Shown here one piece after another: positions 7,181 through 64,000 of a stretch of DNA of 64,000 nt. The stretch lies in assembly GCA_963920705.1 (NCBI GenBank), contig CAWUCO010000169.1:684501-748500 (forward strand), in the 5' to 3' direction. Position numbers and translations under genes: made by a program. How positions within the stretch are numbered: position 1 is the stretch's first letter; the number at the start of each line of letters is the position of its first letter. This DNA comes from Odiellus spinosus. Taxonomy: Eukaryota > Arthropoda > Arachnida > Opiliones > Phalangiidae. The notes below the pieces were generated by a model that was not told the origin of the DNA, ran no database searches, and worked only from the letters and a program-made list of their open reading frames with translations.

Positions 7181-9676
7181 ATGTTTCGAAACGGCGTACA
7201 CAGTATTTTACCAAGTTTTTCGAAGAAATTAGGTTTACTTTTACAATTGAGAAAAATAGGCTCGAACCCGCGTTTCATTTTCAATGCTGCTGGAATAAAA
7301 ACTGAGGGCTTCAACCAAAATACATTTGAAAACAAAAAGGCGACTAATGTTCAAGAAGGTAAAAGAATTTATTTTTAACATATACGCAAGCTCGTAGGAG
7401 GGAATACCAGTCAACCCTCCCAAGTTTAGTTCTTGTATTCGCCCCTTTAACCAGCAAAGAATATATAATCATCGAAAAATATTCTAAAATTTAAATAAAA
7501 TGACCCAATTCAAACTACGGAAATAGCTGCAAATATTAAGTATATTATTTAATTTTACAATTTTTACGTCATCGGTCATTTGGCGCCAAAACGAGAGCTA
7601 TATTATTTAGAGATACCCCAGGTTGAGCTCGTCTAGGCCCGTCCATTAAAGGTTGTATATATTTCTCATTTTTCCACGATTGTCCCAATGTCTAGTTTTG
7701 TAAAGCGGTCCTCATCCGTAAAGTCTAATTCTTTCATTTCGGCGTATATAAATTATTTGTTGCTTCACCCCTATATATAGTATTAAGCAATATTGCTTAG
7801 TGGAAAAACTTACGCAAATTTTCACAAAAACCCGCTTTCACCCCCTTATGTGGGCTTCTTTAAATATGAATAAAAGATACGCACACTTAGCTGTTCCCTG
7901 ATTGAAGATCGGTTCAGTAACGTTACCGAAGCGTCCCATAGATTACTGTCTAATGCATTTTACTTAGGGATAGTTTTCGTGACGTGGCAATGAATTTGGG
8001 TATAATTTTACTATAATTAAAGGGACAAATCTTTGGGATGGAAAACTGAACTGTACTCTTCGCGGGGTGCATTCGTTTGAATCGTTTTTAACCACACTTC
8101 ATGTGTAAGAAGAATCAGAAGCTAGAATAAGTGGCGTCGTTTCCCTTGACTCAATTCATTCGATTCTGTCCAGGACAAATCTTGCAAAAACTGATTTTTT
8201 TAAAGCTCGTTTTCTTTACCCGTCTTTAGCCGAGTTAAAGAGAAATTTTCAAACAGAGAAGCGATGAGCCAGTTTTATTCCCTATTTTTAATATTTTTGT
8301 CGTTACAAACGCCGCTCGAAGACTAGCGAAATTTCAGGAGTTAAAGGAAGAGCTAGAACCAGGTAGCCTTTATCCAAATCCCGAGATTGTCCATGAGAGA
8401 AAGGAAACAAGACGTCGTTCCTTTCGAAGCTCTATAAATAATTAGCTTTCGAATGCAGATTATAATTAAGCGTAAAACACTAGCGCTTCTTCCTATGTTC
8501 TTTCTAAGATACGAAATCGTTAATATTAGCCACGGTACATTACGATATCTAAATTGGTAAATTATTTCATCTACAGGAATTGCAACCAACGCTCACGGAA
8601 TCCCTGGAATGACTGTAGCCGTGAGCGTGGATGGAAAATTGACCTGGGCTGAAGCATTTGGTTATTCGGACTTGGAAAACCAAGTACCGTGCCGAGCAGA
8701 CACCATCATGAGAATTGCCAGCGTAAGCAAATCAATGACCGCCACAGCCGCTGCTAAACTCTGGGAAGAGGGAAAATTAGACATGGACAAATCAATTCTC
8801 GAATATATAGAAGACTATCCACAGCCCAAATTCGATGGAACAAACGTCGTCATTACACCTAGACACCTCGTTTCAAATCTTAGTGGCATAAGACATTACT
8901 CGAAACCGACTCTGGATGGTAAAGACGTTTTTCAAAACGAAGAGTTTTATAACTTGAAGCATTACGAAAATGTGAGAGACGCCCTAAAGGTCTTTGATAA
9001 TGAATCGTTATTGTTCAAACCTGGCGAGAAGTATTCTTATTCATCGCACGGTTTTAGCGTACTAACCGCCGTTATCGAAAACGCCGCGAAGGAATCGTTT
9101 CAAAACCATATGTCCAAAATGTTTGAAACGCTGGGATTGGAAAATACATCTTTCGATCTAAACGATTCTCTGACTTACGGTCGAGCGAGATATTACACGA
9201 AAAAGAATGGATCCATAGTTAATAGTCCGTATATTGACAGCTCGCTTTATTGGGCTGGAGGAGGTTTTCAATCAACAGCGGGAGATTTAGTTAAACTTGG
9301 AAACATCATGCTCTATTGCTACCAGGGTAAAGAAAATGGTTTTCTGAACGCAAATACGGTTGAAAAACTTTGGCAACCAACTGAACAGAGTCAATTAGTC
9401 AAGCAATATCCGTACGGCATGGGATGGGGTATAATTCCACGTAAAGAAGCGTGTAATTTATGTAAATTACAAAAGTTTGCCGTTTTCCACGAAGGTTTAA
9501 ATTCAGGGGCAGCTTGTGTACTTTTAATACAACCAAATGATAATACCAGTAATGACGAGGAAATTGTAAATAAAAGTCAAATGGCAGATACTCCACGAGG
9601 TATTGTACTGGCAATTTTAACCAATTCTGATCAAAGTTCAATCCTAGGTGATTTAGCGGTAGGTATTGTGTGTTGA
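7181..9676 (+). CDS. LACTB: Mitochondrial serine beta-lactamase-like protein (LACTB), two exons, last codons displaced by a transposon
   Basis: LACTB is a filament-forming serine protease of the mitochondrial intermembrane space, related to penicillin-binding proteins. Exon 1 (7181-7358) encodes a start rich in Arg, Lys, Ser and Leu with no acidic residue in the first 40, as expected for mitochondrial import. It ends at a good donor (AAG|GTAAAAG) with one base left over. Exon 2 begins at 8577 after TTTCATCTACAG and needs two bases, so the phases fit. Exon 2 shows HGIPGMTVAVSVDG, GYSDLENQVPC and MRIASVSKS. The SVSK block is the catalytic SxxK, about residues 108-111. SNLSGIRHY, YSYSSHGFS (the YxN-like site) and WAGGGFQSTAGDL follow. 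The KTG-like HTG of vertebrate LACTB reads HEG here. A Copia element enters at 9671, so the frame now ends after one foreign codon. The original ending, KCFDEDTV, lies at 18863-18889, for about 432 residues. An extra small exon in the 1.2-kb intron is not excluded. Confidence 0.85.
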
Positions 9677-9993: not shown

Positions 9994-12900
9994 TCAGTTA
10001 CTTTCTCGCGAACAAAGAAATGATGAATCTTGATGTGTTTGATTTTCGGGATTTTGAGCTAAACAAATAGCCGCATTATTATCAACGTAAAGAATAGGTA
10101 TATATTCAACGTCGACCAAATCCATAAGTCGCCTTTTTAACCAGATCATTTCTCGAGCGGCAGCACTAGCCGCCATGATTTCTGCTTCTGTAGTAGATAC
10201 GGCAGTTGAATGTTGGCGCTGACTAAACCATGATACGGCTCCTCCCGAGTATTTGCATACAGTTCCTGATGTAGATCTTCTGTAAACAACCTGCATAGTC
10301 AGCATCACTGAATCCCTCAAGGATCGCACTGTCTCGATTTGATTTGTAAACAATACCGTAATTTAAAGTCCCAGTTAAATAGCGCAAAAGTCTTTTAACC
10401 ATTACGATAATCATACTGGTTGGGTGTTCTAAAGTTCTTGACAGGACACCAACCGCATACGCGATATCCGGACGAGTTCCTGTCATCAAATACATAAGTG
10501 CGCCAACAGCTTCACGATATGGAAATGTAACTACCGGTAAGGGCTCTACTTCAGCTTGTGAATCTTTGAGGATTGGTGTAGAAACGGGTTTACAATCCGA
10601 CATCCCAAATCGTTCAAGTATTTTCTTCGTATAACTCGTTTGAGAAATTTTTATTGATCCATCACTCCGTTTGTCAATTTCGTAACCGTGATAATATATT
10701 GCTAGCCTTGTCGTAATCTGAAATTCTCTTTGTAATTTGGCGATAAACATTTGAACTTCTTCTTCATCTGATGCGACTACTAGACCATCGTCAACGTAGA
10801 TAGCCAGTATTATTTTCCTTTCCCCATTGTACTTGACGAACAGACATGGGTCAGCTTCACTAGGTTTAAAAGCCAATTTAATTAAAAAGTTTCCAAAACG
10901 TTTATTCCAACATCTTGAGGCTTGCTTCAAGCCGTACAGACTACGATGTAAACGACAAACTTGACCACTACCATCATTATAGCCTTCCGGTTGCTGAATG
11001 TAAACTTCTTCGTCAAGTTTACCGTACAGAAAAGCAGTCGAGACATCAAATTGTATCATTGACATTCTTTCACTTGCTGCTACGGCAAGTACTGTTCGAA
11101 TAGTACTACTTCTTGTTACAGGACTAAAAGTTTCTGAAAAATCAATGCCTTTGCGCTGCTGGAAACCCTTGGCCACTAATCGAGCTTTATATTTATCAAT
11201 AGATCCATCTGAGTTGGTTTTAATACGATAAGTCCATCTGCATTGAATAGCTTTGTGATTCTGGGGCAGAGGTACCAAGGACCAGGTATCATTTTCTTGC
11301 AAAGATTGCATTTCCTTTTCCATGGCCAGTTTCCACATTTCTTTATCATCACTTGAAATGGCTTCGGAATACGTTTCTGGTTCAACGGCAACCAGGTTTA
11401 TTTCATGTGAAAGGTGTGCTTGGTAACGGTCTGGAATTCGCAATTTTGAGCGATCACGAAGATTTCGGGTAGTTGCGTTATCGTTTAGGATTCTTTCTTC
11501 CTCTGACTCATCGTTCACGTCTGATATTTTTGATGGAACTGAAATAGATGAATTATCCACTGATTTCTTGATTAATGTATCTCCTGATTGACCTTCAGTG
11601 TCAGGTTCAGTAGCCATATCATGACTAACTGGATTCTTTATTGATTCTTCAAGGAATGATACATCTCGAGAGCGGATAACCTTGTGATTGGTACCATCAT
11701 AAAGTCTGTAACAATCATCTTCGTCATACCCAATTAATACGCATTGCATTGACTTACGATCTAGTTTTCTTCTAGTTTGCAATGGAAGATGTACGTATGC
11801 GGTAGTACCAATTACACGAAGATGTTTAATTGCTGGTTTACGTCCAAACCATAACTCGTAGGGGGTTTTATCTTCAATTGATGATTTTCCAGTACGATTT
11901 AAAAGGTATCCTGCTGTGTGTATAAGTTCAGCCCATAGGTTTTTCGACAGATTTCCGTGAGAATATAGCATTGATCTCGCGGACTCGACTATTGTTCTAT
12001 TTTCACGTTCAGCTGATCCATTTTGTTGTGGCGTATAAGGAGTACCAATTATTTGCTTTACTCCGTATTTGGCAAATATCGTTCGAACCGTGTTACTGTC
12101 ATACTCTCCACCACCGTCACAACGAAAAGATTTAACCGTATGTCCCAAGGTTTTGGCTTCGTTAAGAAACTGTTCAATTTTATCTGGAACTTCTGACTTG
12201 TGCTTGACAAAATATACAATACGAAAACGAGAAACATCATCTTTAAATAGAACGAACCATTGCTTCCCTCCAAGCGATGCATCAAAAGGTCCACATAAAT
12301 CCGAATGAACAATCTCTCCAGGTTCTTTAGCTCTATATGGATCCCGAGATCCGAACGGTTTTCGATGAGCTTTACCATAGTGACAACCCTCACAACTGGA
12401 ATTATCTTTAGGTAGGCAGACGTTGAGTTCACGTTCGACAATCTTCCTTACTTGACGCTTATCCTGATGACCCATTCGTTCATGGTACAGTTGCAGTAAA
12501 TTTTCACTAACAACTGAGTTAGCATGCGAAGCTGTTGATGGTTTAACGACGTGAATATGCAACTTGAAGAGACCTCCTCCTTGTTCACGAGAACCCATCA
12601 AATGCACCTGCCCATTCGTAGATAAAGTGCAAACTTTGGTTTGTGACTCAAAAATGCTTCCAGGAACGTGGTCGTGGGCAGCTAGAACTGAGAAGAGATT
12701 CATTTGTAATTTCGGAACGAACCAGACATCTCTAAGGTTAATATTAAATTCTCTTCCGTGAACATTTGATTTGATCGCTACTACTCCCTTTCCAAATGCC
12801 ATAGCTCGTTGACCATTTGCTGTGGTTACACCATGTGCGGTTTCAAAATTCTCAAACGTAATAAAATTTCCTCGTTCGTTCGTGATATGTGTAGTGGCTC

Positions 12901-13894
12901 CATTATCAACATACCAACCATTATCGAACGACGGTGACAGGAAAGCTAATTCATCCGTAACCATTTGAGTAACAGTATATGAAATATTCGTAAAACTTGA
13001 ACTTGCTTGTGCTTTAGATGGAGTATCAATTTTTCTTCCACCATTGAAAACTGGATTGTGGGATTTATCGGGTCGGCCATCTTTAATCCATTTCTTACAA
13101 TATCTGACGATGTGTCCATGCTTCTGGCAGTAATTGCAACGATATCTCTTGAAGCGTTCTTTCAAATTTGAATTTTGTTGTCCATCTTCCACGACGTTCC
13201 CTTTTTCAGTATTTCTTACCGCTTTCGTACGAGCGATTAACGCTTCTTCAACATGACCATGATGCGAAGAATTATCCAAATCTCTCTGGAACGCGCAGAC
13301 TTGCGTTGTTAGATTATCTATTGTGCGATCCGATTTACTAAGTAACTTCCAGGATGATTTAAACGCAAAATAAGAAGTCGGAAGCGAACTCAAAATCTTG
13401 CACATCAAAAACGTTTCCCTATAGTCAACCTTAGTTCTATCAATTTCCGCGACTGTTTCAGACCATAAAGTTCGCAAATTTGAAATGATAGTAGTTACGT
13501 CTTCATTAGAGCTCGGTTTATACTCGACGAAACGCTGCATAAGATCATACACTTTCACATCAGTAGCTCCATCGTAGAGCCTATGAAGCTCATTCCAAAT
13601 ATCAGACGGCGACGTAAACCGCATAACTTTTTGTAGTATATCGTCTGGTAATGAACTTAATAAAATTGCAATAGCATGATTTTCAGCGTTCTTGAACTTC
13701 GTAACTTGCTGTTCGTATAGCTTCAGATCTGCAGCTGTAGCTGAGACTGCCGGCTGAGCAGGTCGTACGTGTGTCCCGTTAACTACATCTTCCGCACCAT
13801 CAACCATACCGAGTACCATTCGCACGCGAAATTTCCAGGTCGTCCACCCGGTTTTACCATCCAATGGTTTAATCTGCATTCGTAACATATCCAT
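9994..13894 (-). CDS. Copia gag-pol polyprotein (fossil)
   Basis: The main frame (10223-13894, 1,223 codons) covers nearly the whole Copia polyprotein in the usual order. It holds a gag domain (MDMLRMQIKPLDGKTGWTTW), a CCHC zinc knuckle (CNYCQKHGHIVRYC), an aspartic protease (WYVDNGATTHI), a GAG-pre-integrase region (YHERMGHQDKRQV), an integrase (VHSDLCGPF, RCDGGGEYD, NGSAERENRT) and a reverse transcriptase with the active-site block LAIYVDDGLV. Sequence matching RNase H (STTEAEIMAASAAARE, LYVDNNAAICLAQN) continues to about 9994. Integrase before reverse transcriptase is the Copia arrangement. Judged as a fossil: nearly intact, about one break. Confidence 0.9.
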
Positions 13895-30509: not shown

Positions 30510-33500
30510 GCGCTTTGTGATGAAAGCGTGAAATTTTGGATATTGTCAAATTAAGGTATTTGTAATTAATTGAAGATTAGAGCCCATCCCTTACTCGTTT
30601 GTGACAGTTGTGACAAGCTGTCAAAAGTTCGCGAGACGACATATATATTTGAAATCTTAGTTTTATTGAATACCCCTGTAAAACGATAGCGTATCTTTTG
30701 TCCCGCCGCTACTCGGTTGAGTCATTTTGGCCGGGGGCGTCCCTAAAGGAAAATGTGTCTTTCGCTCTGGGCTATATATGTATTTATTCTACTAATAGCT
30801 ACTGAATATATAAATAAGGAAAGAAAATTAATTCCCACTAAATTATTTTAGTTCAGAATGAGCATTATAGGATATGATTTAACGCAAATTAAAAGTTATC
30901 GATATAGAAATTAACATAACGTGAAAATAAGAATAGGAACATGAAAAGATGATTGGGAAATTAAAATAAATTATTGTGATTTTAAATTTGGATAAAATAT
31001 CAGAACGAAGCTTAAAGAGATAATGAAGCTCTAAAAAATGACATTTAATTTTTATTCTTGAAACTTCCAAATCGAACGAAAAGATTTACAATGTTTTCAT
31101 GCAAATTTTATATGAGCAGATAAATAAAAAATCTAGTGGTTTAGGCTCCGCTTGTATTTCGAAAGTTAATTTTCACACCCGCCACATTTACATAGAGCGG
31201 TGCAGGGTAAATGCGATTTTGCGCACTTGCAATTTCCATGGCAGCCTTTAGTGCTCCCGCATTTAAGCATTTCTCGGCACGCATCGCCAGCTGGTGGTAT
31301 GGTCAACCAGATTGGTTGCCACTCGATTGAACCATTTGATTGAATTGCTTTGGACCATCCAAAGCTGGATGGATCTGGTAAACTGGGCATTTTGACTAAA
31401 CACTGTCCCCAAATGTGGCCAGCCTGGTAAGCCACTCGAAAAAGGTGTTGCAATAACGCGTCCTCAGTTGGAGGGATATTCTCGATATCGCGATTTTTTT
31501 TGGGTGAATAGGCTTTTTCTGGATTGGTTGACTTTTTCATCGTCACTACATCGATCATACATAAGCACGACGAATCTCTCTACTGTTGGTAGAATTTCTT
31601 TCACTGCTAAATAAGAAGGACTAGTCGATATCGATTGTAGAGCCTGTGTTAAATCTTCGAATACGTTCCAAGTTGACCAAGCGGTTTTTTGTCCCTTTCC
31701 GTTAAAACTTGAAGTCGTATCGCACCCTGTTAGAGCGTGAAAGACCGGGATCGCTTCGCATTTCTCTTTTCCTAATTTATCAGCCAGGCGAGTCGCGTCT
31801 ATATATCGGAAGGCTCGACCTTTCCCATACGCGATCACAAGGCGATCGCAACAAATCTTACGCGCCAGAGAAACGCTTAAAACCAAGACATCAGTGTCCA
31901 CTGTTCTAACAAGTATGGATTTATGCCCTCGCAGAGCACCGTTAAAAACATGAAGCAACATCCTGGTATCCGCTTCTTCGTGCGAGCAAGGAGAAACACC
32001 TTCGAGATTGGTTTCAACCGAACAAATAACATTGATTCCATTCGTGATGTACACGGCTCCTGGAAACTGAGAAGCAACAGCCACCTGACTCAAAAAATTA
32101 AAATGTTCCTTTTTAATTTCTTGGTGTCTTAGAAACTCTGGCCAATTGCGGGGCAAATATTTTCGACCATCAACTCGTACTCTCACTCCTTTTCCCCGCT
32201 TCTTTCTTGTAGATTCTTTAAGGCTTTCATCCAGGTATACGTCGAAGACAACATCTACACGACGAACGCAACCGATAAACTGCGAACTTATGTATTTTGT
32301 AAACACAGTTGCGTAATCTAAAAACGTTCTAGCGGTTCCTGGTTTTATGAAATTCACTATCACAGCACCATCAAGCGCAACCATGTCTGATACGGGAGTT
32401 GATGTGATCTCGTCGTCTTCTGTCAAGATATCTTCTAACAATGTGTTAAATCCGATTTCGTACCGAATCGTATGGCATCATTGTCGGACAATGAGGGTGG
32501 GTAAGGTTGGTTTTCGTGTCTAAAAAAATCCTCTAGGTCGCCCATTCGTCCTTGACAACCTATATATATAGTCTCGAAAATAAATTTCGGTCATTCCTCA
32601 TGGCCGTGATTTGAAGTTGGTTCTTCGATTTCTCTCGCTCTGGTGGTCGACTAAAAAGTGGAAACTTATTTTTCTTCAAAACATCTGTAGGTTCTATCTT
32701 GCACTGAACCAATCGATTTTCAATTTTATATGTTGTTTAGCGAAATAGCTATTCTTTTATCCAAAATTTGTCGCGTATCGAGTACCAGCAAGTCCGTAGT
32801 CACATCGGTAAATGGGTTCCTCATATCATTAATGATAAACTGCAGACTTCACACGTTCCAGAAGTTTTATTTGTTTGCTTGGAGTATCTTCGTGATGTCG
32901 CGTTTTACTAGACGTTGCTCCCTTTTCAATGATTGCCAGAAACTCATTGACAATTCGACAAGTTTCGGGCCCCGATACCATCCACCTCAAGAGAGTTGTA
33001 GGCTTTTCTGTGAGACAGATGGCTCCGCCATCTCCTTTGATGATTGCATTCTTGAAAAAGGCCTCTCAGTTTTGTTGATTTAAATTTTCCCTGGCAGAAG
33101 TTGTTGAAAATTTCCGGATGTTTATCTTTAAGACTTGATATCCTCTCCGTATACATCTGGAAATTTCCATTGAATTTCTTTGGCAAGTTAGAAGAGTGGC
33201 TGGTCACAAGCAATGACGGGTACTTGACCTGGGTTTAAAATGGTGGTTGCTTGTTTAACTACTCCTAAACATACTCCTAAGGCATTCATAATAAAGGCAC
33301 ATTTTCGCTTGAGGGATGGCCCCGGTCCCAATGCCTCTAGCGAGTAGCGGCGGGACAAAAGATTGCTTTCGTTTTACAAGGTAAATCAATAAAGGCAAGA
33401 TTTCAAATATATATGTAATCTAGGGTACCTTTGACCGCTTGTCACAACTGTCACAAACGAGTTAGGGATGGGCTCCAATCTTTAATTACTTTTATTTACG

Positions 33501-35762: not shown

Positions 35763-37469
35763 TTGTTCTTTAACGCGATGTTGTTTTTACGACTTCGTTT
35801 TTCTTGCAGGGCTCTCTGAATTTATGAGAATTATACTTGTACTAATAATATTTAATGTTTATTCTGGTCTCGATCGTCTCGTTAATTCTCGAGTAGATAT
35901 TTTAGTATCTTAGTGGATGTTCATGGTAATCACTTTTAGTTATCTTTAAGTTAGCAGATTAAAACAACGCTAGTAAGGTCACGTCAGGCTAGTATATTTT
36001 ATCCCTCGAATTAGCCAATATCAATTTAGCTAGTAATCCCTTGGTATCACCCTTCTCTCTTGTAATTGACGAGTTCGGAGTTGAAGCGAATCTTATAGAT
36101 CCATGGCGCGATTGAGGTATAACTTCGTTATGCGCGGATTTGTTACGAGGTGCCGCTTTCGTCGTTCTTATTCTAAACTAAGCGTAGTGGACGAATAAAT
36201 GGATGGAAACAAAGAGTCATCATATTATATGTAACGGCAAATTCGGACTTTATTTATATTTTCCTATATAACCTTTAAAATCTTTGACTCCTACCCTTTA
36301 ATTCGTAAATACTTTTATTTGTAAACGGCAGAGACTCCCCCCAGGACAATTACAGTCGTAGGGTGTTTTTTCTTTTAGGTCTTCCGATTCGCGTATCTAG
36401 CTAGCGCGAGGTCGGAGGTTAGAGTTGTAATGGTTTTTCTTGCACATGGGCTTCCTTTTTTTACAAATCGGTCCCATGTGTACTCAATTTTAAGAAAACT
36501 TTAAATTCCTTTTAGTTGCCATGCCCGCGTATGCCGCGGCATGGTACCAATTATATATTTTTCTACTTACTGGTATCCTGAGGTTGGACTGGAGACTTAA
36601 AAGCGAGAGGTCATAATTTTAAAATTGAGTTTAAATCTACGGAGTAAGAAAAAGGCTCGATCGCCATGTGCAAAATAAAATCTAACCGGGCAATCGGAGG
36701 ATTCGAAATCACGCGATGACGGGACGTCAGCGACCAGTATTCTGTATACATTTCAACCTTTAATTGTGCGCGTGCTTCCACGATTATTTGTGCGCGTCGT
36801 GTATCGCGTCCTCACAGGAAAACGAGTGAGTTCAAAGCTATTTTAAAAGGGTACCAATTAATTAGGTCAAAACTATTATTCTAATAGCCCATGAGGTGCA
36901 CCATGGCAGACCAGTATTTATTAAGTGTTGTTAATAATTTTCATTAACCGGCAAATAAACTGAATGGTTTCATTTTAAATCTAAATGAAAAATGAAAATT
37001 AAACGGTATAAACCATCAAAATGAAAACAACGGCTTAAGCGATGTTAATATTCAACTAAATCGAAAGAACTTCTGAAATAAACTGTGTGAAATGAAATTT
37101 AAGAACTATAGTTTTATGCTGAGAGTATTGACGTGTTCTTTCTGCGGGAGCTCGAGGGAATATTTTTGAATATGGCAAAAACAAGAACTTAATCAATTTA
37201 CTTTTAAAAAGATCAAATAACGTGCTGCGATCGAGATTAAAAAAAATGTCGCGTGCACCATAGGATATTTAATATTAAACCACAGTTATAGGGCCCCATA
37301 ATTTAGAACAACATTAACCGATTATAAAGTTTCTACAATATAAAATAATCATATGTATTAAATCATTTCAATTTAAACTTGTAAATTTGCAATTTTAATT
37401 ACCTACCACTAAATAAAAAAAATGGGTTAATTGATTTACTAGTGTTTAATTTTTCCAAAAGCAAACACT

Positions 37470-38264
37470 AATTATACAAAAACGTTGTTTTGCTTCGCAC
37501 TTCAAAAAAGTGCATTTATAGGTAAGAATATCAAACCCGTGAAGTGACAGAAATTATAAATTATCGTTGAAAGAAATATGAATGTCACAGTCTAAGAAAT
37601 CAGAAAGCTATAATGAAATAATTAATATGAATAAAAAAATTACATATAAATTCGGCCTATTGAAACTTTAAATTATGTAGAAGTTATTCGTAGAAATCAC
37701 TCTTGGAAAGGGTAACTTAAAGCCTACTATGCGTTTAATGGTAGAATTGCGTAATACCAATTAGTTTAAGCTGGCGCTTTTGAAATGTTTAGTTTTTAGG
37801 GTGAAGAATTATAGTTCCTTAAGAGGGGTTGCCGTTTGGATGCCACTCGAGATTTTGAGCATGTTTGACCACGGGGTATACACTAACAAACCTTTACTTG
37901 TGCCTTATCGTCACCTGACACCTCTGCCAAAGTTTAGTTGATTCTTACTTTTTCCCTTCTCCTAGACTTTGGTGATATCTTATGGTGATGGTTGCAGTTT
38001 CCAGCTTGTAAAAGCAAACACTCCGTTTTTTATAACCTTTACATTCTTTAACTCTACATAATTTAAAGTTTCGATAGGCCGAATTTATATGTAATTTTTT
38101 TATTCATATTAAATATTTCATTATAGCTTTCTTATTTCTTAGACTGTGACATTCATATTTCTTTCAACGATAATTTATAATTTCTGTCCCTTCACGGGTT
38201 TGATATTCTTACTTATAAATGCACTTTTTTGAAGTGCGAAGCAAAACAACGTTTTTGTATAATT
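37470..38264. repeat. Palindromic module P, copy 1
   Basis: About 220 bp at each end are inverted copies of each other (AATTATACAAAAACGTTG and GCTTCGCACTTCAAAAAAG as markers) around about 350 bp. A second complete copy is at 46058-46852. It forms the inner boundary of both arms and joins different sequence in each case. Confidence 0.85.
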
Positions 38265-38381
38265 AATTTCTGCTTCCTTCACGGGTTTGACCCGAATCGG
38301 ATAAAGAGCTCTTCTTACAAAATGGTGTTTTTTGGCAGGAGAAGACGGCTCTTCCAATTTTCGATTGCGATTCTTCCTATG
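38265..38381 (+). repeat. Repeat X, first part (interrupted)
   Basis: It matches 60557-60677 (CACGGGTTTGACCCGAATCGG as a marker). It breaks off at CTTCCTATG and resumes at 44148 after the transposon. Confidence 0.88.
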
Positions 38382-38775
38382 TAGCCCAGGGAAAATAAAA
38401 TCAAAATAAGCGAAACCTGGAATAAATTAGGAAAAAGCTGAATTTTTGCAGGATGATAGTATATGACTAGTTAAACAAAATCCCAAAACTCCCCATCATT
38501 CCGAGCGCCGCTCCCCCTTTTACGCCCCCCCAAAGTTGGGAAAATCCACTTACGTTTATTTTTGCTGTAACTTCGGAACGAGATGAGGCAGAGGCGCAAA
38601 TCAGCATTCGTATTAAAGGTTATAATCATGGCTACAATTTATTATACTATGAGAAACCTGTAGCTCGAAAGGTTTGGCTGGTATTAATTAATTTACATTA
38701 AATCGTAATGATTTTTAATGCTAAATTTTGAAAAACTTGGAAATTTACACTCATATATATGAGGAAATATTTAAA
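38382..38775 (+). repeat. Left terminal inverted repeat of the XPG/CXC transposon
   Basis: It pairs with 43765-44147. Long identical stretches include the GCCGCTCCCCCTTTTACGCC region and the block around GAAACCTGTAGCTCGAAAGG. The outermost ten bases are perfectly matched. Confidence 0.93.
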
Positions 38776-39282
38776 GAAATACACAAAATATTCATTTAGC
38801 GATCTATGAAATCTCACTAAAGAAGTAAAAATTTGAAAATTGTGAGCCTAAAATATCTAAAAATATATTACAAGATCTAACCTTTGTTGAAAGCCGCTGA
38901 TGTATCCTTTCTAGTCAGTAATAAATTCGCGTATACTGGTCAAGTGAGAGCAAAGTCTACAGGCCATAAAACCGGAAAAAAACTTACTGCTTAATATATA
39001 GAGAGGTTAAGTTCCATTTTTTTTTCGTGTACGTAAATAACACGCATTGACACTATAGATAGCTACATGTAAAGGGTATTCTTATACACCGACTGTTGTT
39101 GTTTTTGGGAAATTTTTATTATTTTTCTCCAGAATTTGTTTTAGTTGGAATGGAAAACAGTTTCTTGTTAGAGTTACTCCGGACGTTGTCATAGTTCGCG
39201 GTGTTAAGTTTAAGGTTGTGTCTTCTCAATAACTTTTACATTACGAAGTTATGGAAAATTGCGACAAGTCGCATTTTTATAA

Positions 39283-41043
39283 ATGGAACGGTGTATATTG
39301 TGTGAAAATGACATTAAAGAAGAAAGACTCGTGAGAGTAAGCAAAGGATTAACGACGATCATTCAGTCTAGTATTGAAAGAAAGGATGGCTTACACGAAA
39401 AGTTAAGTAATCTCTCAGAAATAAGTGTGCATGAAATATGTAGAAAAAACTATACGAGAAAAAGTAGCATTAAAGCTGCTAAAGAAGAAGAAAAAACAGA
39501 TGTCGATGGGCAGGGTTCTTCTCGTTTAAGAACACAAGTCGAGTTTGACTTTAAAAAACAATGTCTATTTTGCGAAAAGGACGCTCGGTTCGATACTAAA
39601 CTAAGAATAGATAAAAGACAAAACATTCATTTAATTGAAACCCTTGAAATACGGGAAACCATTTTGGAATACGCGAAAAAACGTAGTGATGAATGGGGCT
39701 GCAAAGTTAGTAGGAGAGTTCGTGGTGTGTTAGATCTCGTAGCTGCTGAAGGTCGTTACCACAGAAACTGTTACATTCAATTCACTAAAGCAACTAGTGT
39801 TCGTCCGTCGGGTCGACCTAAGAGTGATGAAAAATCTAAAGCACTTCTCGCACTATTTGAGTGCCTAGAAAAGAGTGATGATACACAGTTTTCAATTAGT
39901 GAGCTTCAAGAACTGTTTGCAAAGTTTTTAGTTGATGAATCCGAATGCGCAACATATTCAGACCGATGGTTAAAAGAACAATTACAGTTGCATTTCGGAA
40001 ATATTGTTTTCACGGATAGACCCGGTAAAAAAAGCATAGTGTGTTTGTCTGACACCGCTAATAAACTTATGCGCGATAAATGGTATTCGGACAGAAAGTC
40101 AGACATGAACGATGAGCGCGAGAGAGTTGTAGAAGCAGCTGCCATGATAATACGAGAAGACATTCAAAAAATGATTTATAGTAGGGATGTTTATCCTAAT
40201 GCTGAAGAAATAAAAGTTGGAGGGACCAGTTTAATTCCAGCAACGTTAGAACTATTTACCGCTGCACTCACCAAAAAGAAAGGTTCCGATCAGGATAAAT
40301 CAAGCGATATGTTACGTAAACGCAAGGTGATTAACCACGCCATAATATCAAGTTTGAGACCCCGATCTTTTATGTCACCAATTCAAACGGGTTTATCCTT
40401 GTACTTAGCTCGCCGCTATGGTTCGAAGCATTTACTTGAAATTCTCTCAGCTATGGGCGTTTGTGCCTCATACAAGGAAGCCCAATTATATCAACAATCT
40501 CTTATTGCTTCTGGCGCTCCTTGTGTAGAGGAGCATGCATTTGTCCAATATGTATTTGACAATGCGGATGTAAACATAAGATTAATAGATGGGCTAAACA
40601 CATTCCACGCGATGGGTGGTATTCGTTATATAACTCCAAGCAGGTGTGTTGAAAACAGAGTTGAAGTAAATCGGGTAACAGTTCGATCGCTAAAAGCCAC
40701 ACCTGAAACCATTCCTATTGTTTCTTACAAGAAACCAACAAACTTGGGTCTAAAAAACGTAACTCTCAAAGATATTTCGGATTGCGGAGCAACATTTAGC
40801 CCGTTCACAGTGGGTTCGATGTCCCCCTCAAATTTCGTATGGCTCAGTGATTTTGCGAGTATACCGAACCCTTTTCTAGGCTGGAACGGTTTTATGCACA
40901 ACTTTAAGCCTAATGAGGATAACTTCGAGACGAGCTACGTCTTAGCTCTTCCATTTATTGACGTAGATCCTTTAAATCCAACGTCAGTTTATTCGGCGCT
41001 TTGTTTTGCAGCGCAACAGTGCAAACAAAGAAACCAAATATGA
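39283..41043 (+). CDS. Transposon protein, N-terminal half: paired CxxC...HxxC fingers and first transposase motif
   Basis: 586 codons. Two related zinc-binding-like modules open the protein: C4-x2-C7 with H50-x2-C53, and C94-x2-C97 with H160-x2-C163 (AEGRYHRNCYIQFTKA). A middle region (about 185-300) is probably helical. Residues 417-446 hold EEHAFVQYVFDNADVN and DGLNTFHAMGG, which I recall as strongly conserved in uncharacterised animal proteins of this family. The DN.D could supply the first acid of a transposase triad (inference). The frame ends in TGA at 41041, but the same frame continues beyond the stop with IVTFDQPLFLKAAEMM and VVRLGGFHLLMSFLG. That part belongs to the family, so the stop truncates the protein. 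Start chosen at the first Met, directly before the first CxxC. Confidence 0.8.
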   Translation: MERCILCENDIKEERLVRVSKGLTTIIQSSIERKDGLHEKLSNLSEISVHEICRKNYTRKSSIKAAKEEEKTDVDGQGSSRLRTQVEFDFKKQCLFCEKDARFDTKLRIDKRQNIHLIETLEIRETILEYAKKRSDEWGCKVSRRVRGVLDLVAAEGRYHRNCYIQFTKATSVRPSGRPKSDEKSKALLALFECLEKSDDTQFSISELQELFAKFLVDESECATYSDRWLKEQLQLHFGNIVFTDRPGKKSIVCLSDTANKLMRDKWYSDRKSDMNDERERVVEAAAMIIREDIQKMIYSRDVYPNAEEIKVGGTSLIPATLELFTAALTKKKGSDQDKSSDMLRKRKVINHAIISSLRPRSFMSPIQTGLSLYLARRYGSKHLLEILSAMGVCASYKEAQLYQQSLIASGAPCVEEHAFVQYVFDNADVNIRLIDGLNTFHAMGGIRYITPSRCVENRVEVNRVTVRSLKATPETIPIVSYKKPTNLGLKNVTLKDISDCGATFSPFTVGSMSPSNFVWLSDFASIPNPFLGWNGFMHNFKPNEDNFETSYVLALPFIDVDPLNPTSVYSALCFAAQQCKQRNQI

Positions 41044-41170
41044 ATTGTAACCTTTGACCAGCCACTTTTTCTAAAAGCAGCCGAAATGATGACATCGGCA
41101 GAGAAGGATTCTGAAGTTTCAAAAGTCGTAAGACTTGGGGGATTTCATCTTCTAATGTCATTTTTGGGTT

Positions 41171-43648
41171 ATGGAAGGAAGTGGAATAGAGGAACTTTGG
41201 CAAACAGTGTACGGTACTTCCACCGTTAACCACATGCTCTCTGGACACGCTTACGCACGAGCAATAAGAGCCCACATGATGACTCAAGGCGCGCTGATGA
41301 TAATACTGGTTACAGAATCTCACGAGCTGAAGAACCTTTTTCCACAGAATATACCCGAACTTTACAACCAAATTTTAAACCACAAACTTACATTAGAAGA
41401 GTTATCACAGTGCAAGGATATTAAGCCTTTGCTCGACCGTTTTTCGAAAATTTGTGATTCAATGAAATCCCAAAGCCGCACTACAAAACTATGGATTCAG
41501 TACATCCAATGCGTCGAACTCATGCAAAAGTTTATTTTCGCCGAACGCACATGGAACTGGAAATTACATATAAAAACGGTTATAGACATGCTTCCGTTTA
41601 TCCATGCTGCTGGGCACCTCCCCTACGCGAAGTCAGCTCACCTCTATGTTCAGTTAATGCAGAGCATTGAGTCAAAGATGAATGAGAAAGATTTTAATGA
41701 ATTCATGCATAAAGGACTTTTCACAGTTAGGCGAACGGAGAAATATTTTTCGGGAACTTGGACGGATATGTGCATTGAACAATCCCTTATGCGATCTTTG
41801 AAGTCAATGGGTGGGCTAACGCATGGAAGAAGAATAGCTGAGAATACTCTAAGTAACTGGATCCTCTGTACACCTGCATTTCTGAACATTAGCGAAGCAT
41901 TGCAGCACTTTACAGACACGTCATCGGATTTTAACGAACAACATGTCGAGTTACGTGAAAGTAGGAAAGCCAGAGATTCTAAAGACTTTGAAAAATTCAA
42001 GGAGTGGCTAACTGATCGTTCACCATTTGGAATGCTATCAGGGGACTTAGTCGGCTTATCTTCTGGATTAGTCGTCGATGAAAGTGTAACTTGCGATAAA
42101 GCTTATGAAATTGGACTGTCTTGTATTAAACAAATGGTTGGAAAAAACTTTCAAGACATAAAATTGCGCAGGAAGGACATGGTTAAAACAATCGCCTTCT
42201 CAAAGTCCAGCATCAAAGTACGGAATGAGATGGTTACCGTAAACTCACAGCAGCTGTTTAATCGCTTAATCTGCGTTTGTCAAAGTCAGAATGATCTCAG
42301 ATCATATTTCAAATATGAGTTAGCAGCTCGTCCCCCTTCTTTGTTCGACGATGTATCTCTACGTAAAGGAACTAAATCATCACTCGTAAAAGCTTTCAGC
42401 GATGGAATTGTTCCAGAGAAAGCTATTCGAAAGGATGTATCTGTAATCTTGGATGGAGGTCATTTACTTCGCAGCTTTGTGTGGCCTAAACCAGACAGTT
42501 TTACAGACATTGTAGAAAGTTACGTAAAACACGTAAAATACCACTTCGGAACTAACTGCACGGTCGTATTTGATGGCTACCCAAACAAACCTACAACAAA
42601 AGATATCGAGCACCTTCGACGTACTAGCAAGAGAACTTCGCCAGAAATTCGTTTTTCAACCTCTATGGTATGCACGGTTCCCCAAGTAGAGTTTCTTGGT
42701 AACGCGAAGAACAAGAAGAGATTTGTTTCGGTGCTGAAAGAAAGCCTTCTTTCCGAAAATATTGACGTTATTATTGCTGAAGATGACGCTGACCGTGACA
42801 TCGTTTCGATCTGTCTTGAAAAACATTTAAGAGGAGGCGCTTGCGTGGTCGGCCAAGACACCGACTTACTAGTAATGTTGATTGCTCTTACCCCAGAAAA
42901 ACCCAACAATATGTTTTTCATGAAACCGTCCACAAGATCTAATCCTAGCGTGGTTTACGACATCAATAATCTAGCAAAGAAATATGCAAAAGCCCGAAAA
43001 TGTTTGCTTTTTATTCACGCGATAAGCGGTTGCGACACAACATCAGCTATATACAGAAAAGGAAAGATGCATGCCCTACAAATTCTGAAAAAAAATCCGC
43101 ACCTTCAAACCGAAATTGAAATATTTCTCAACCCGGATTCTACCCAAGATAAAATTGCCGAAGCTGGGGAAAAATTTATTCTACAGATGTACGGAGTTAC
43201 TAAGCAAAACACTTTAGATGAGAGTAGATATTATCTGTACAATAAAGCCACGGCGAAATTAAATTTGAGGTCCAAATTTGAATTAGCATGTTTACAACCA
43301 ACCAGTGCAGCAGCTCGACAACACTCTTTAAGAACATATCTTCAAGTACAGCAATGGCAAGGAAACTGTCTTAACCCAACCGATTGGGGATGGAAATTAT
43401 CTGCTGGAACGCTACAGCCTGTTCCTACTCTAGTAAACGTGGCTCCGGACACATTGTTAAATATGGTGTCATGTAACTGTAAAACGGGATGTAAGCAAGC
43501 TTGTGGTTGTCGAAAGAGTGGGCTCTTGTGTACGTCAATGTGCGGTCAATGCAATGGCTTGTCGTGTACAAACTCCCCTGAAATAAATCTGAACAATGAT
43601 GATGACGATGATGCTGGCATAACAGTGTCTGAAGACATCTTTACGTAA
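41171..43648 (+). CDS. Transposon protein, C-terminal half: transposase core, XPG/FEN nuclease fold and CXC domain
   Basis: 825 codons. Residues 1-35 (EGSGIEELWQTVYG, HMLSGHAYARAIRAH) continue the upstream protein; the Met is internal to the ancestral protein. Residues 195-221 show GTWTDMCIEQSLMRS and GGLTHGR, a likely transposase acid. Residues 422-645 fit a FEN1/XPG nuclease: VILDGGHLL, CTVVFDGYPNKP (FEN1: VFDGKPP), AEDDADRDIV, VVGQDTDLLV and AISGCDTTSAIYRKGKM. Residues 767-800 are a CXC (tesmin/TSO1-like) cysteine cluster with CNCKTGCKQACGC and CGQCNG, a probable DNA-binding zinc module, followed by an acidic tail with six Asp. The acids expected for metal binding are all present, so the nuclease half may still be able to fold. 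A frame change of about a dozen missing bases near 41160 separates it from the upstream half. Confidence 0.85.
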   Translation: MEGSGIEELWQTVYGTSTVNHMLSGHAYARAIRAHMMTQGALMIILVTESHELKNLFPQNIPELYNQILNHKLTLEELSQCKDIKPLLDRFSKICDSMKSQSRTTKLWIQYIQCVELMQKFIFAERTWNWKLHIKTVIDMLPFIHAAGHLPYAKSAHLYVQLMQSIESKMNEKDFNEFMHKGLFTVRRTEKYFSGTWTDMCIEQSLMRSLKSMGGLTHGRRIAENTLSNWILCTPAFLNISEALQHFTDTSSDFNEQHVELRESRKARDSKDFEKFKEWLTDRSPFGMLSGDLVGLSSGLVVDESVTCDKAYEIGLSCIKQMVGKNFQDIKLRRKDMVKTIAFSKSSIKVRNEMVTVNSQQLFNRLICVCQSQNDLRSYFKYELAARPPSLFDDVSLRKGTKSSLVKAFSDGIVPEKAIRKDVSVILDGGHLLRSFVWPKPDSFTDIVESYVKHVKYHFGTNCTVVFDGYPNKPTTKDIEHLRRTSKRTSPEIRFSTSMVCTVPQVEFLGNAKNKKRFVSVLKESLLSENIDVIIAEDDADRDIVSICLEKHLRGGACVVGQDTDLLVMLIALTPEKPNNMFFMKPSTRSNPSVVYDINNLAKKYAKARKCLLFIHAISGCDTTSAIYRKGKMHALQILKKNPHLQTEIEIFLNPDSTQDKIAEAGEKFILQMYGVTKQNTLDESRYYLYNKATAKLNLRSKFELACLQPTSAAARQHSLRTYLQVQQWQGNCLNPTDWGWKLSAGTLQPVPTLVNVAPDTLLNMVSCNCKTGCKQACGCRKSGLLCTSMCGQCNGLSCTNSPEINLNNDDDDDAGITVSEDIFT

Positions 43649-43764
43649 AAATGGGGAATCGACAAATTTAAGGATTCTGACGATATGGCATGTTTGAATA
43701 ACTGATTAAATTCAAAAGATTAATAAAGTATCTTCCTATTCCATAAGATATGATGGAGCTTTAT

Positions 43765-44147
43765 TTTATATTTCTCTAAATATATGTGTGTAAATTTCCA
43801 AGTTTCTCAAAATTTAGCATTAAAAATCATTACGATTTAATGTAAATTAATTAATACCAGCCAAACCTTTCGAGCTACAGGTTTCTCATAGTATAATAAA
43901 TTGTAGCCATGATTATAACCTTTAATATGAATGCTGTGTTGCGCCTCTGTCTCATCTCGTTCCGAAGTTACAGCAAAAATAAACGTAAGTGGATTTTCCC
44001 AACTTTGGGGGGGCGTAAAAGGGGGAGCGGCGCTCGGAATGATGGGGAGTTTTTGGGATTTTGTTTAACTAGTCATATACTATCATCCTGCAAAAATTCA
44101 GCTTTTTCCTAATTTATTCCAGGTTCAATCCTATTTTCCCTGGGCTA
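43765..44147 (-). repeat. Right terminal inverted repeat of the XPG/CXC transposon
   Basis: The complement of 38382-38775, ending CCCTGGGCTA and followed by ATG. Differences from the left end are a few substitutions and small indels near the tip. Confidence 0.93.
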
Positions 44148-44687
44148 ATGTTTAATTTTAAGGAAACAACATCGCTAGTTATACGCGGAGTTTCAAAGCC
44201 ATTGTTTTCCTAATCTAAAATAATTGTTGATGAATTATCTATACGAGGGTACTGCGGGCCTATTCCATAGCAGTCTAATAAAATTCATTCGTATTTAAAT
44301 TAATTTTAACTGAAATTTTGGGATAACGGATAATTCGTAATCAAAACAGATAACTATATTTTTCGAAAATAAGAAAAATAATTTAAAAACTCACGGTTTT
44401 TATATTCAAACTTCTATACGACGCGAAACGAAAGCTACAGATGTTTTAACTCGACTTGAGAAGCCGCTTTTTATGTAGTACATTTGCAATTATAATTAAT
44501 TGTCAAAGTTAAAAGAATTAAGAAGCATTGACGTATACTCTGCGTATGAAAGCAATCATAATCTCATTACTTCGCTTCTTCATAAGTACATCGATAACAA
44601 AACTTAATTGCTTTTTGTGAATATGACAACGAATAAAAATATGATTTATAATCTTAGTTTCGTTGTTTTATTTTATATATCAGAAGC
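44148..44687 (+). repeat. Repeat X, second part
   Basis: It resumes repeat X after the transposon and matches 60680-61230 (TAATTTTAAGGAAACAACATC, ACTGCGGGCCTATTCC). Non-coding. Confidence 0.85.
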
Positions 44688-60482: not shown

Positions 60483-60556
60483 TACCACTACCATAACCTA
60501 CAACCCCTGTTATGGGCCGACGATCAAGTGTAATATTAAATTGCTCTTTCTCCTAC

Positions 60557-61230
60557 AATTAATTTCTGCTTCTTTCACGGGTTTGACCCGAATCGGATAA
60601 AGAGCTCTTCTTACAAAATGGCGTTTTTTGGTAGGAGAAGTCGTCTCTTCCAATTTTCAATTGCGATTCTTCCTATGTTTAATTTTAAGGAAACAACATC
60701 ACTAGTTATACGTGGAGTTTAAAAGCCATTGTTTTCCTAATCTAAAATAATTGTTGATGAAGTGAAATATAAATTTTAGACATTATCTATACGAAGGTAC
60801 TGCGGGCCTATTCCGTAGCAGTCTAATAAAATTAATTCATATTTAAATTCATTTTAACTGAAATTTTGGGATAACGGATAATTCGTAATCAAAACGGATA
60901 ACTATATTTTTCGAAAATAAGAAAAATAATTTAAAAACTCACGGTTTTGATATTCAAACTTCTATACGACGCGAAACGAAAGCTACAGATGTTTTTATTC
61001 GACTTGGGAACCCGCTTTTATGTAGTACATTTGCAATTATAATTAATTGTCAAAGCTAGGAGAATTAAAAAGCATTGACGTATACTCGGCGTATGAAAGC
61101 AATTATAATCGCGTTACTTCGCTTACTCGTACAACGATAACAAAACTTAATTGATCTTTGTGAAAATGACAACGAATAAAAAGATGATTTACAATCTTAG
61201 TTTCGTGGTTTTATTTTATATTCTTCCAAT
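60557..61230 (+). repeat. Repeat X, uninterrupted copy (empty site of the XPG/CXC transposon)
   Basis: It matches 38265-38381 joined to 44148-44687. The junction reads CTTCCTATGTTTAATT with a single ATG, which defines the target and the 3-bp duplication of the transposon at 38382-44147. Confidence 0.88.
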
Positions 61231-61744
61231 CAGTGGTGGATTAGGCCTATTTAAACGATAAGGAATCGATAAAAAATCAATTATTATTTGGTTGCATTCT
61301 CCCTTTAAGAACGCGTCAACCATTGATTAATAATAACCAAGAGCTAAGAAATTTTGAGTATGGCATTTTAATAGTATGACAAAATTAAAAATATAATCCA
61401 TAAGCGTTTTAATAAAAAGTGACAGCCCCACTTTAAGTGAATTGCACTTTGAATTTAAAGTTTACGACAACCAATAACGGACCAACACGCGCTTCGAACT
61501 TAAAAATTAATATTTAAACTTGTGTTTTTATTCTTACCAAAGACGCGTCAACTAAATCTGAACTCAAATTTCAGTGATCGCGCTAGCGGGAGAAACAAAA
61601 ACATCAATAGCCTTTTTCTAATTGAGGTAGGGTGTCTAATACTCGATCGGGCCGGACCGGGCCGGGCTTTTTATGTTTTAAAAATTCAACGGGCCGGGCC
61701 GGGTAATTATAAAATAAGAATAAGGCAATTAATGAATTTCTCAA
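61231..61744. other. No gene recognised
   Basis: AT-rich except for a short GC island of GGGCCGGGCCGGG-type repeats at about 61650-61705. No gene. Confidence 0.45.
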
Positions 61745-62144: not shown

Positions 62145-64000
62145 TCAATATTTTAGTTTTAACAACATACACATTTCAATAAATTTTCTTTTAGGTATTA
62201 TTTTCTTAAACATATCTGCGAGATTGCCATGAGTACTAACATATTTAATATTAAATAGCCCTTTTTGTAAACAATCTCTAACATAATGATATCGCAGATC
62301 AATGTGTTTGGTTCTATTATTTTCTATATTATTTTCTGAAAAATATATAGCGGCTTGGTTATCACAGAATATTTGTGGTATTTCATTATAACCATTAAGT
62401 TTAAAAATAGTTATTAATTCGTTCAAATACACGAGTAATCCATGTAACTTCTTTAGCTGTATCAGCCAGAGCGATGTACTCTGCTTCCATGCTAGATAAC
62501 GCAACACTATTTTGTTTAACAGATCGCCACTCAATGGGGTTATCACCTAAATTTATAAGAAATCCGCTTGTTGATTTTCGGTCATCAAGATCAGATCCCC
62601 AGGAAGCATCACAAAACACGTTTATATTGAGTCTGTTCAAGCCCTGATAATGTAATCCATAATTACTAGTATCACAAACATATTTAAATACACGTTTAAG
62701 GGCATCACAATGTACTTGTCCTGGATTTATAGAATATCGAGCTAGGGTCGAGACTGCGTAAGTTATATCTGGCCGAGTTCGTTGTGAAAGATATAAAAGG
62801 ATACCAATCATCTGTTTATAAGGGAATTTAATGGGTTGATCGGGTGAAGGACAGGATTTATTTGAGATGGACAGTCCTTCTGGTAGTGGAGATTCAAAAA
62901 TTTTATTTATTTCTGTCTTCCAGGTGTTTTGTAATTTCTGTATATAAGCATTTTGATGTATGACGGCTTCGCCCCTACTAGGGAATTCAAACTGGATACC
63001 AAGAAAATAATGTAGAGGTCCTAAATCATTTACTTCAAATACAGTTGCCAATTTGTCGTGTAACATCTTTACAACCATATCATCTTTTCCAATTATAATA
63101 ATATCATCCACGTAAAGGATTAAAATACCAGATAACTTATAATAATAAATACAATTTGATCCCTGTAATTGAGTGTATCCTAAATTCAGTAGTTTGTTAT
63201 CCAACTCCGAATACCATTGTTTGCCGCTTTGTTTTAATCCATATAGAGCTTTATGTAAAACCATACATGGTCCTCCTTTCCTGGTACAACAAAACCCTTA
63301 GGTTGTTTGACATAAATCTCTTCATCGATATCACCATAAAGATACGCGCATTTGACGTCTAGATGTTTGTGAGACCAACCAAGACATACGATAAAGAGTA
63401 ATACGCAAATCCGGATGATAGTGAAATTTGCCACTGGTGCGTATTTTTGGTGATAATCACTTCCATATTCCTGGGCAAAACCCTTAGCAACTAATCGTGC
63501 CTTATGTCTTACAATTTCTCCGTTAACTTTCTTTTTCAACGCGTATACCCATCTTGTTCCGATGATTTTCTTATTTGAAGGTTTTGGCACAATTTTAAAA
63601 ACGTTTCTTTGTTTAATAGTAGCTATCTCAGCTTCCATTGCCTCTTGCCATTTTTGTGCATCCGTACTTTCCATTGCCTCTACGTACGAGGTTGGTAATT
63701 CTAAACAATGATGTTCTATATTTCCCAAAGCATTCGGTTGCACTTCAGGAATATTTTGTGTTGGCTGAAATGAAAATTTATATGTATCGCAAACTATATT
63801 ATACTTTTTCATATAGGATTTTAATTCATTTTCGGAACGGATTCTATGATTTTCAGGATCAAAGTAATAAACATCAATTCTATCACCAGATTTTCGAAGA
63901 TGTTCTTCTCGTCGCCATCCAATGGGAAAATCGTCCTTAACGTCTATTATCTTCACCTTTGGTTTACGAAAAGTTACAAAACCTTTATTTTCTACTAATG
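62145..64000 (-). mobile_element. Copia-type retrotransposon, 3' part of pol, running off the window (fossil)
   Basis: Minus-strand coding shows the start of the Copia reverse transcriptase region (AEIATIKQRNVFKIVPKP, RWVYALKKK, KARLVAKGFAQEYG, DVKCAYLYGDIDEEIYV), the YGLKQSGKQWY block, the active site ILILYVDDIII, and PDITYAVSTLARYS. RNase H follows (NVFCDASWGSDLDDRKSTSG, SSMEAEYIALADTAKE, FCDNQAAIYFSEN, HIDLRYHYVRD). It is a different lineage from the element at 9671. Integrase and gag lie beyond the right edge, and no LTR could be fixed at the left end. About two breaks are apparent in the visible part. Confidence 0.9.

Follow-up and report, generated by a model that had tools for sequence, protein, structure and literature searches.

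An Academ-like DNA transposon with an EXO1/FEN1-type nuclease domain in Odiellus spinosus: a damaged copy and its relatives in the same genome

AcademX transposons carry a nuclease of the XPG type. One source (PMC10045372) describes AcademX elements with target-site duplications of 3-4 bp and AcademH elements with duplications of 9 or 10 bp, and connects this difference with the nuclease of the former and the helicase of the latter. For curated Academ elements of bivalves, a second source (PMC10294476) gives a mean length of 5,565 bp. Our literature search returned no paper that contains both words, Academ and XPG. It also met no experiments on the role of the nuclease in such transposons, the Academ papers proper being outside its reach.

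Here, we study a stretch of 64,000 nucleotides from Odiellus spinosus (called the window in the following) together with the 443-Mb assembly (286 contigs) in which it lies. An autonomous cut-and-paste transposon is present in the window in broken form. It most likely belongs to the Academ superfamily and there to the nuclease-bearing AcademX lineage. This assignment is based on published descriptions of Academ. Respective features and their positions are provided in Table 1.

Table 1. Features of the transposon and of its target in the window (positions count from the first letter of the window)
Feature	Position	Strand	Remark
DNA transposon, Academ (AcademX)-like, damaged copy	38382..44147	+	5,766 bp
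Target-site duplication ATG, left copy	38379..38381	.	sequence read
Target-site duplication ATG, right copy	44148..44150	.	sequence read
5' terminal inverted repeat	38382..38770	+	389 bp
3' terminal inverted repeat	43768..44147	-	380 bp
Transposase-nuclease gene, first half: paired CxxC...HxxC fingers and start of transposase	39283..41043	+	
Candidate catalytic Asp (VFDNAD) in first half	40558-40560	+	from columns invariant in relatives
Candidate second catalytic Asp codon (VTFDQP), between the two open frames of the element	41056..41058	+	from comparison with relatives
Second half of the gene: end of transposase, XPG/FEN-type nuclease, CXC-like cysteine cluster	41171..43648	+	
Candidate catalytic Glu (CIEQ) in second half	41777-41779	+	
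EXO1/FEN1-type nuclease domain	42443..43230	+	right boundary approximate
Invariant Asp codons of the nuclease	42452, 42572, 42791, 42857, 42863, 43034	+	always-acidic position at 42785
CXC-like cysteine cluster	43472..43573	+	nine cysteines invariant in four sequences
Paralogous target repeat without insertion (related empty site)	60554..61233	+	single ATG at 60675-60677

Both ends of the element carry the tip TAGCCCAGGG, and the first 16 bases are identical between them. An initial annotation of this DNA had reported inverted tips of 10 bases, long terminal inverted repeats and an ATG duplication; all of these are confirmed, i.e., the tips turn out longer and the repeats and both copies of the duplication are found at the positions listed in Table 1. 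When the flanks of the element are fused with a single ATG, they align across the junction to the related empty site with small gaps and one 21-base gap. The uninterrupted copy of the target repeat, previously placed at 60557-61230, is therefore found again within slightly wider limits. Being a paralogue of the target repeat, this copy is evidence of an insertion into a repeat and not of excision.

Further features of the window lie outside the element. An inverted repeat of 223 nt (37459-37681 and 38053-38275, arms 96% complementary and 371 nt apart) lies close to its left end and is possibly another short transposon. Frames of Copia-type retrotransposons were observed at 10223-13894 (-), 3257-3835 (+) and 62401-63264 (-), one of them with 1,223 aa and matches to gag, integrase and reverse transcriptase. 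An ORF of 355 aa at 8609-9676 (+) forms a single frame and matches the Pfam beta-lactamase family (PF00144, 2.8e-48).

The gene of the element is interrupted in the window. That is, the first frame stops at a TGA (41041-41043), and the second half of the gene continues in a different frame. The two frames are halves of one protein, as is shown by a sister family (L009-L013, see below) that has the whole protein as a single ORF. Within the second half, the motifs VILDGG, VFDGYP, AEDDADRD, GQDTD and SGCDTT are found in the order given by the initial annotation, and the CXC-like cysteine cluster is present as well.

To place the nuclease, we rely on profile comparisons. A Pfam search of the window's own frames returned no XPG, DDE or TCR match, and a scan of the whole genome for Pfam XPG_I identified three places only, one of which is the host EXO1 (L034). 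An alignment of four family sequences was compared with the host EXO1 by hhalign, which gave an E-value of 6.3e-5 over 208 columns (21% identity) with the acidic motifs in register. The score of this comparison is 41.7, while the best score among 200 shuffled EXO1 sequences is 25.5. A comparison with residues 1-1066 of L013 (E 2e-22) overlaps the query alignment and hence provides no control. For a profile of seven sequences (window, L013, L018, L028, L037, L044 and a second fragment in the window, 31467-32441), the E-value against the host EXO1 is 4.6e-6. When the same profile is searched against 177,635 PDB sequences, five EXO1 sequences rank first (1.5e-6 to 5.2e-5), followed by weaker matches to FEN1 (0.0082 to 0.24, one archaeal sequence at 1.5) and RAD2 (0.08). 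Six further matches, out of 27 in all, are not significant, namely poxvirus F1-type proteins (0.14-0.2), a cellulase (1.2) and an endonuclease (1.5). Neither EXO1 nor FEN1 was found in PDB with a single protein as query, which matched a designed protein only, or with the four-sequence nuclease profile, which gave a chance-level match only. The NCBIfam search returned nothing, and two scans of viral contigs identified no relatives.

The seven-sequence alignment comprises 277 gap-free columns, 21 of which are invariant. Six of the latter are FEN-type aspartates that match the acidic motifs of EXO1, and a seventh position holds either D or E throughout. These acidic positions are catalytic in FEN1. 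The initial claim that the transposon contains an EXO1/FEN1-related nuclease domain is thus supported by sequence profiles (EXO1 at E 1.5e-6 in PDB). The domain would be expected to adopt a PIN/FEN fold, as judged from these sequence comparisons. A single-sequence AlphaFold2 model of the window's nuclease region is unusable (mean pLDDT 36.3, pTM 0.24).

For the transposase, six members were aligned, two of which are 22% identical to the first. The motifs FDNxD, VTxD, GxxH and DxxxEQ are invariant in 6/6, and the window's own halves, which stand outside this alignment, carry the same motifs. The D, D and E of the invariant motifs are candidates for the DDE triad. Searches of PDB with transposase profiles gave no significant match (one without any match, one with a chance-level match). 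The connection to Pfam is provided by a relative: L037 and L013 match over nearly their whole length (BLASTP 6e-57, 23% identity), and L037 scores above the cut-off of DUF6589 (1.5e-8), as does L036. L013 itself remains below the cut-off (E 0.032 for the whole protein, 0.011 for the transposase part). That is, the transposase region is tied to DUF6589 through L037 and not directly.

We also assessed how often transposase and nuclease occur together in the genome. Given two queries for the transposase (each taken from a lineage with the nuclease), best candidates only and nuclease matches from partial lists (18/83 from one search; from another, one match that ends before the nuclease was deliberately left out), 50/64 merged transposase loci show a same-strand nuclease match no more than 4.5 kb downstream. 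This leaves 14/64 loci without nuclease by this criterion, of which 11 are without any nuclease match when the full outputs are inspected by eye. The other three, of which two lie on C274 and one on C7, are wrongly missed by the criterion, since a single continuous match spans from the transposase into the nuclease.

With regard to the remaining parts of the protein, paired fingers (CxxC...HxxC twice) are present in the window protein, L013 and L044, while for the L028 fragment only the second pattern was found. A CXC-like end is found in the window, L013, L018, L028 and L044 and is missing in L037. L044 is 22% identical to L013 and nevertheless combines fingers, transposase, nuclease and CXC, such that the combination is common to deep lineages. 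The fingers and the CXC end had been put forward as an unusual architecture, which is not supported by this recurrence. The CXC end is optional: the lineages of L013 and L044 possess it, and L037 lacks it. For Pfam TCR (PF03638), five other places of the genome score 18.9-19.2 bits (cut-off 23.5), and 4/5 of them overlap regions that match L044 in its nuclease-CXC part.

Further copies of the window family were identified by 296 bases of the 5' repeat (38385-38680), which have 28 matches in the genome. We read the DNA of ten copies (window, L014-L017, L027 and L029-L032); matching terminal repeats at C13:20.35 Mb (88%) and C2:22.2 Mb (85-95%) are outside this set. Both tips are found in 9/10 copies, L015 being without the outer 3' tip. 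Of these nine, 8 show an exact 3-bp duplication, and all eight triplets are different (ATG, CTT, ATA, AAA, ACC, TAG, AGG, TTA). The triplets next to L016 differ from each other (ATG and GGG). As a duplication is expected in about 1/64 per copy, 8/9 are not explained by chance. The initial annotation had named copies with other tips or other duplication lengths as evidence against its reading. This check did not refute it: the nine further copies share the tip at every end found (17/18 ends).

Four of the copies, i.e., L017 (3592-6199), L029, L030 and L031, are 2.6-kb fold-back copies with one inverted junction in common and 98.0-99.4% identity. Read one way, they contain a portion of the nuclease-CXC frame, and read the opposite way, the CXC part. 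Every one of them is flanked by its own 3-bp duplication. In the numbering of the 825-aa frame, their nuclease frame starts near residue 446, such that the first conserved Asp (within VILDGG, residue 425 on) is left out. We considered whether these copies represent an independent 'solo nuclease' element and rejected this on account of the common fold-back junction and the missing Asp. They look like non-autonomous derivatives that are mobilised in trans. Two internal deletion junctions were read at the sequence level. In addition, a related copy with an open frame of 882 aa (L023, G000:C169:758000-767000) was observed about 12.7 kb past the right end of the window.

The sister family L009-L013 consists of five insertions. 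The inserted element is 5.72 kb long and has the tip TAGCCCAGTAAA. Each of the five encodes an ORF of 1,463 aa, i.e., the whole protein. Pairwise alignments show 0-2 substitutions and 0-2 gap columns, where one gap column stems from a flank base that had remained on the slice of L011. The flanks are different, and a duplication was read by eye for 5/5 insertions (ATA, CAA, TTA, TAA, TAG). Near-identical elements with 1,463-aa ORFs in different flanks, each with its own duplication, are strong evidence of very recent movement.

A third lineage (L036, L037) has the tips TAGACCGGGAG and duplications in 2/2 copies (CAA, TTA). Within the L044 family, a matching 3-bp duplication is found in 1/3 copies (TCA, copy on C1), while the copies on C6 and C8 are without a matching triplet. 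When the four families are pooled, 16/19 copies that are seen at both ends show a 3-bp duplication, and the tips of all four families start with TAG. Apart from these families, the window contains a 325-aa fragment (31464-32441, -) of another XPG-nuclease transposon family, which is distantly related to that of the main element. The fragment has 92 matches in the genome (E<=0.001), among them relatives of the main element, and its nuclease is 22% identical to that of the latter.

Given these results, we can sketch how such an element may move. What is conserved or directly observed are the insertions with 3-bp duplications, the recent movement and the conservation of both enzyme domains. In intact relatives, the work would be done by one protein, which is encoded by a single open frame and comprises about 1,460 residues. 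The terminal repeats would be bound by its N-terminal fingers and perhaps by the CXC end as well, and the DDE core would cut the 3' ends and join them to target bonds that are 3 bp apart. The XPG-type domain would cut or trim the 5' (non-transferred) strand in the manner of a flap endonuclease, i.e., it would either complete the excision or clear 5' flaps after strand transfer. A further reading is that two unrelated nucleases divide the strands between them, with the DDE core responsible for the transferred strand and the FEN/EXO1-type domain for the 5' strand as a dedicated structure-specific cutter. We rate this reading as somewhat unlikely. If it holds, both the DDE core and the flap nuclease would be needed for the donor break and perhaps for the 3-bp duplication too.

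The nuclease might instead act only after integration, i.e., by removing 5' flaps or by helping to repair gaps at the new or the donor site, while the DDE core makes both excision cuts. FEN1-type enzymes act on 5' flaps, and the FEN-type acidic residues are kept in the element. Phage Mu offers an analogy, and an analogy only: its 5' flaps on the transposon ends are resected after integration (PMC3325207). The sequence does not separate this post-integration role from a role in excision, and we consider the former a serious possibility, although short of probable. A different reading takes the XPG-like domain as a non-catalytic PIN-type module that binds DNA or RNA. While the identity to EXO1 of just 21% could be taken in its favour, six aspartates are invariant and the seventh position is always acidic among seven sequences, three of which are only 22-24% identical to the window's, such that we consider a loss of catalysis very unlikely. 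The role of the nuclease can be approached in the sister family, whose recent movement, undamaged ORFs and defined ends make it testable. Furthermore, the genome holds several diverged lineages in which the nuclease is kept, and the unnamed DUF6589 of Pfam is now linked to the transposase region.

Finally, we relate the element to known systems. The initial annotation had proposed an Academ-like or sister lineage, which is consistent with the 3-bp duplications, the nuclease and the shared tips; the likeness to Academ is one of description and not of protein comparison. Together with the weak Pfam support in the window family, this leaves room for a separate superfamily that has the nuclease in common with Academ and not the ancestry of the transposase. 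As size, duplication length and nuclease all fit the published description of Academ and AcademX, we regard a separate superfamily as quite unlikely. We therefore favour membership in Academ, i.e., the element is largely ordinary and most likely of a known kind.

A DDD/E transposase with an accessory nuclease or helicase is likewise reported for Kolobok lineages (PMC9587614), where the nucleases are of other kinds, namely DEDDh, lambda-exonuclease-like and His-Me finger. EXO1, FEN1 and RAD2 resemble the nuclease of the element in the order of the acidic motifs and in the profile match. They differ in that the nuclease of the element is fused behind a transposase, is about 21% identical and is missed by Pfam. 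Pfam DUF6589, whose function is unknown according to Pfam, is matched by the transposase region of L037, while L013 is below the cut-off and the window frames do not match. AcademH, as described in PMC10045372, is unlike the element, since it combines a helicase with duplications of 9-10 bp where the element has a nuclease and 3 bp; among the Pfam matches (E<=1) of L013, L037 and L044 there is no helicase. AcademX, in contrast, has several features in common with the element, i.e., terminal inverted repeats (389/380 bp in the element), a nuclease beside the transposase, 3-bp duplications (published 3-4 bp) and a length of about 5.7 kb (published mean 5,565 bp).
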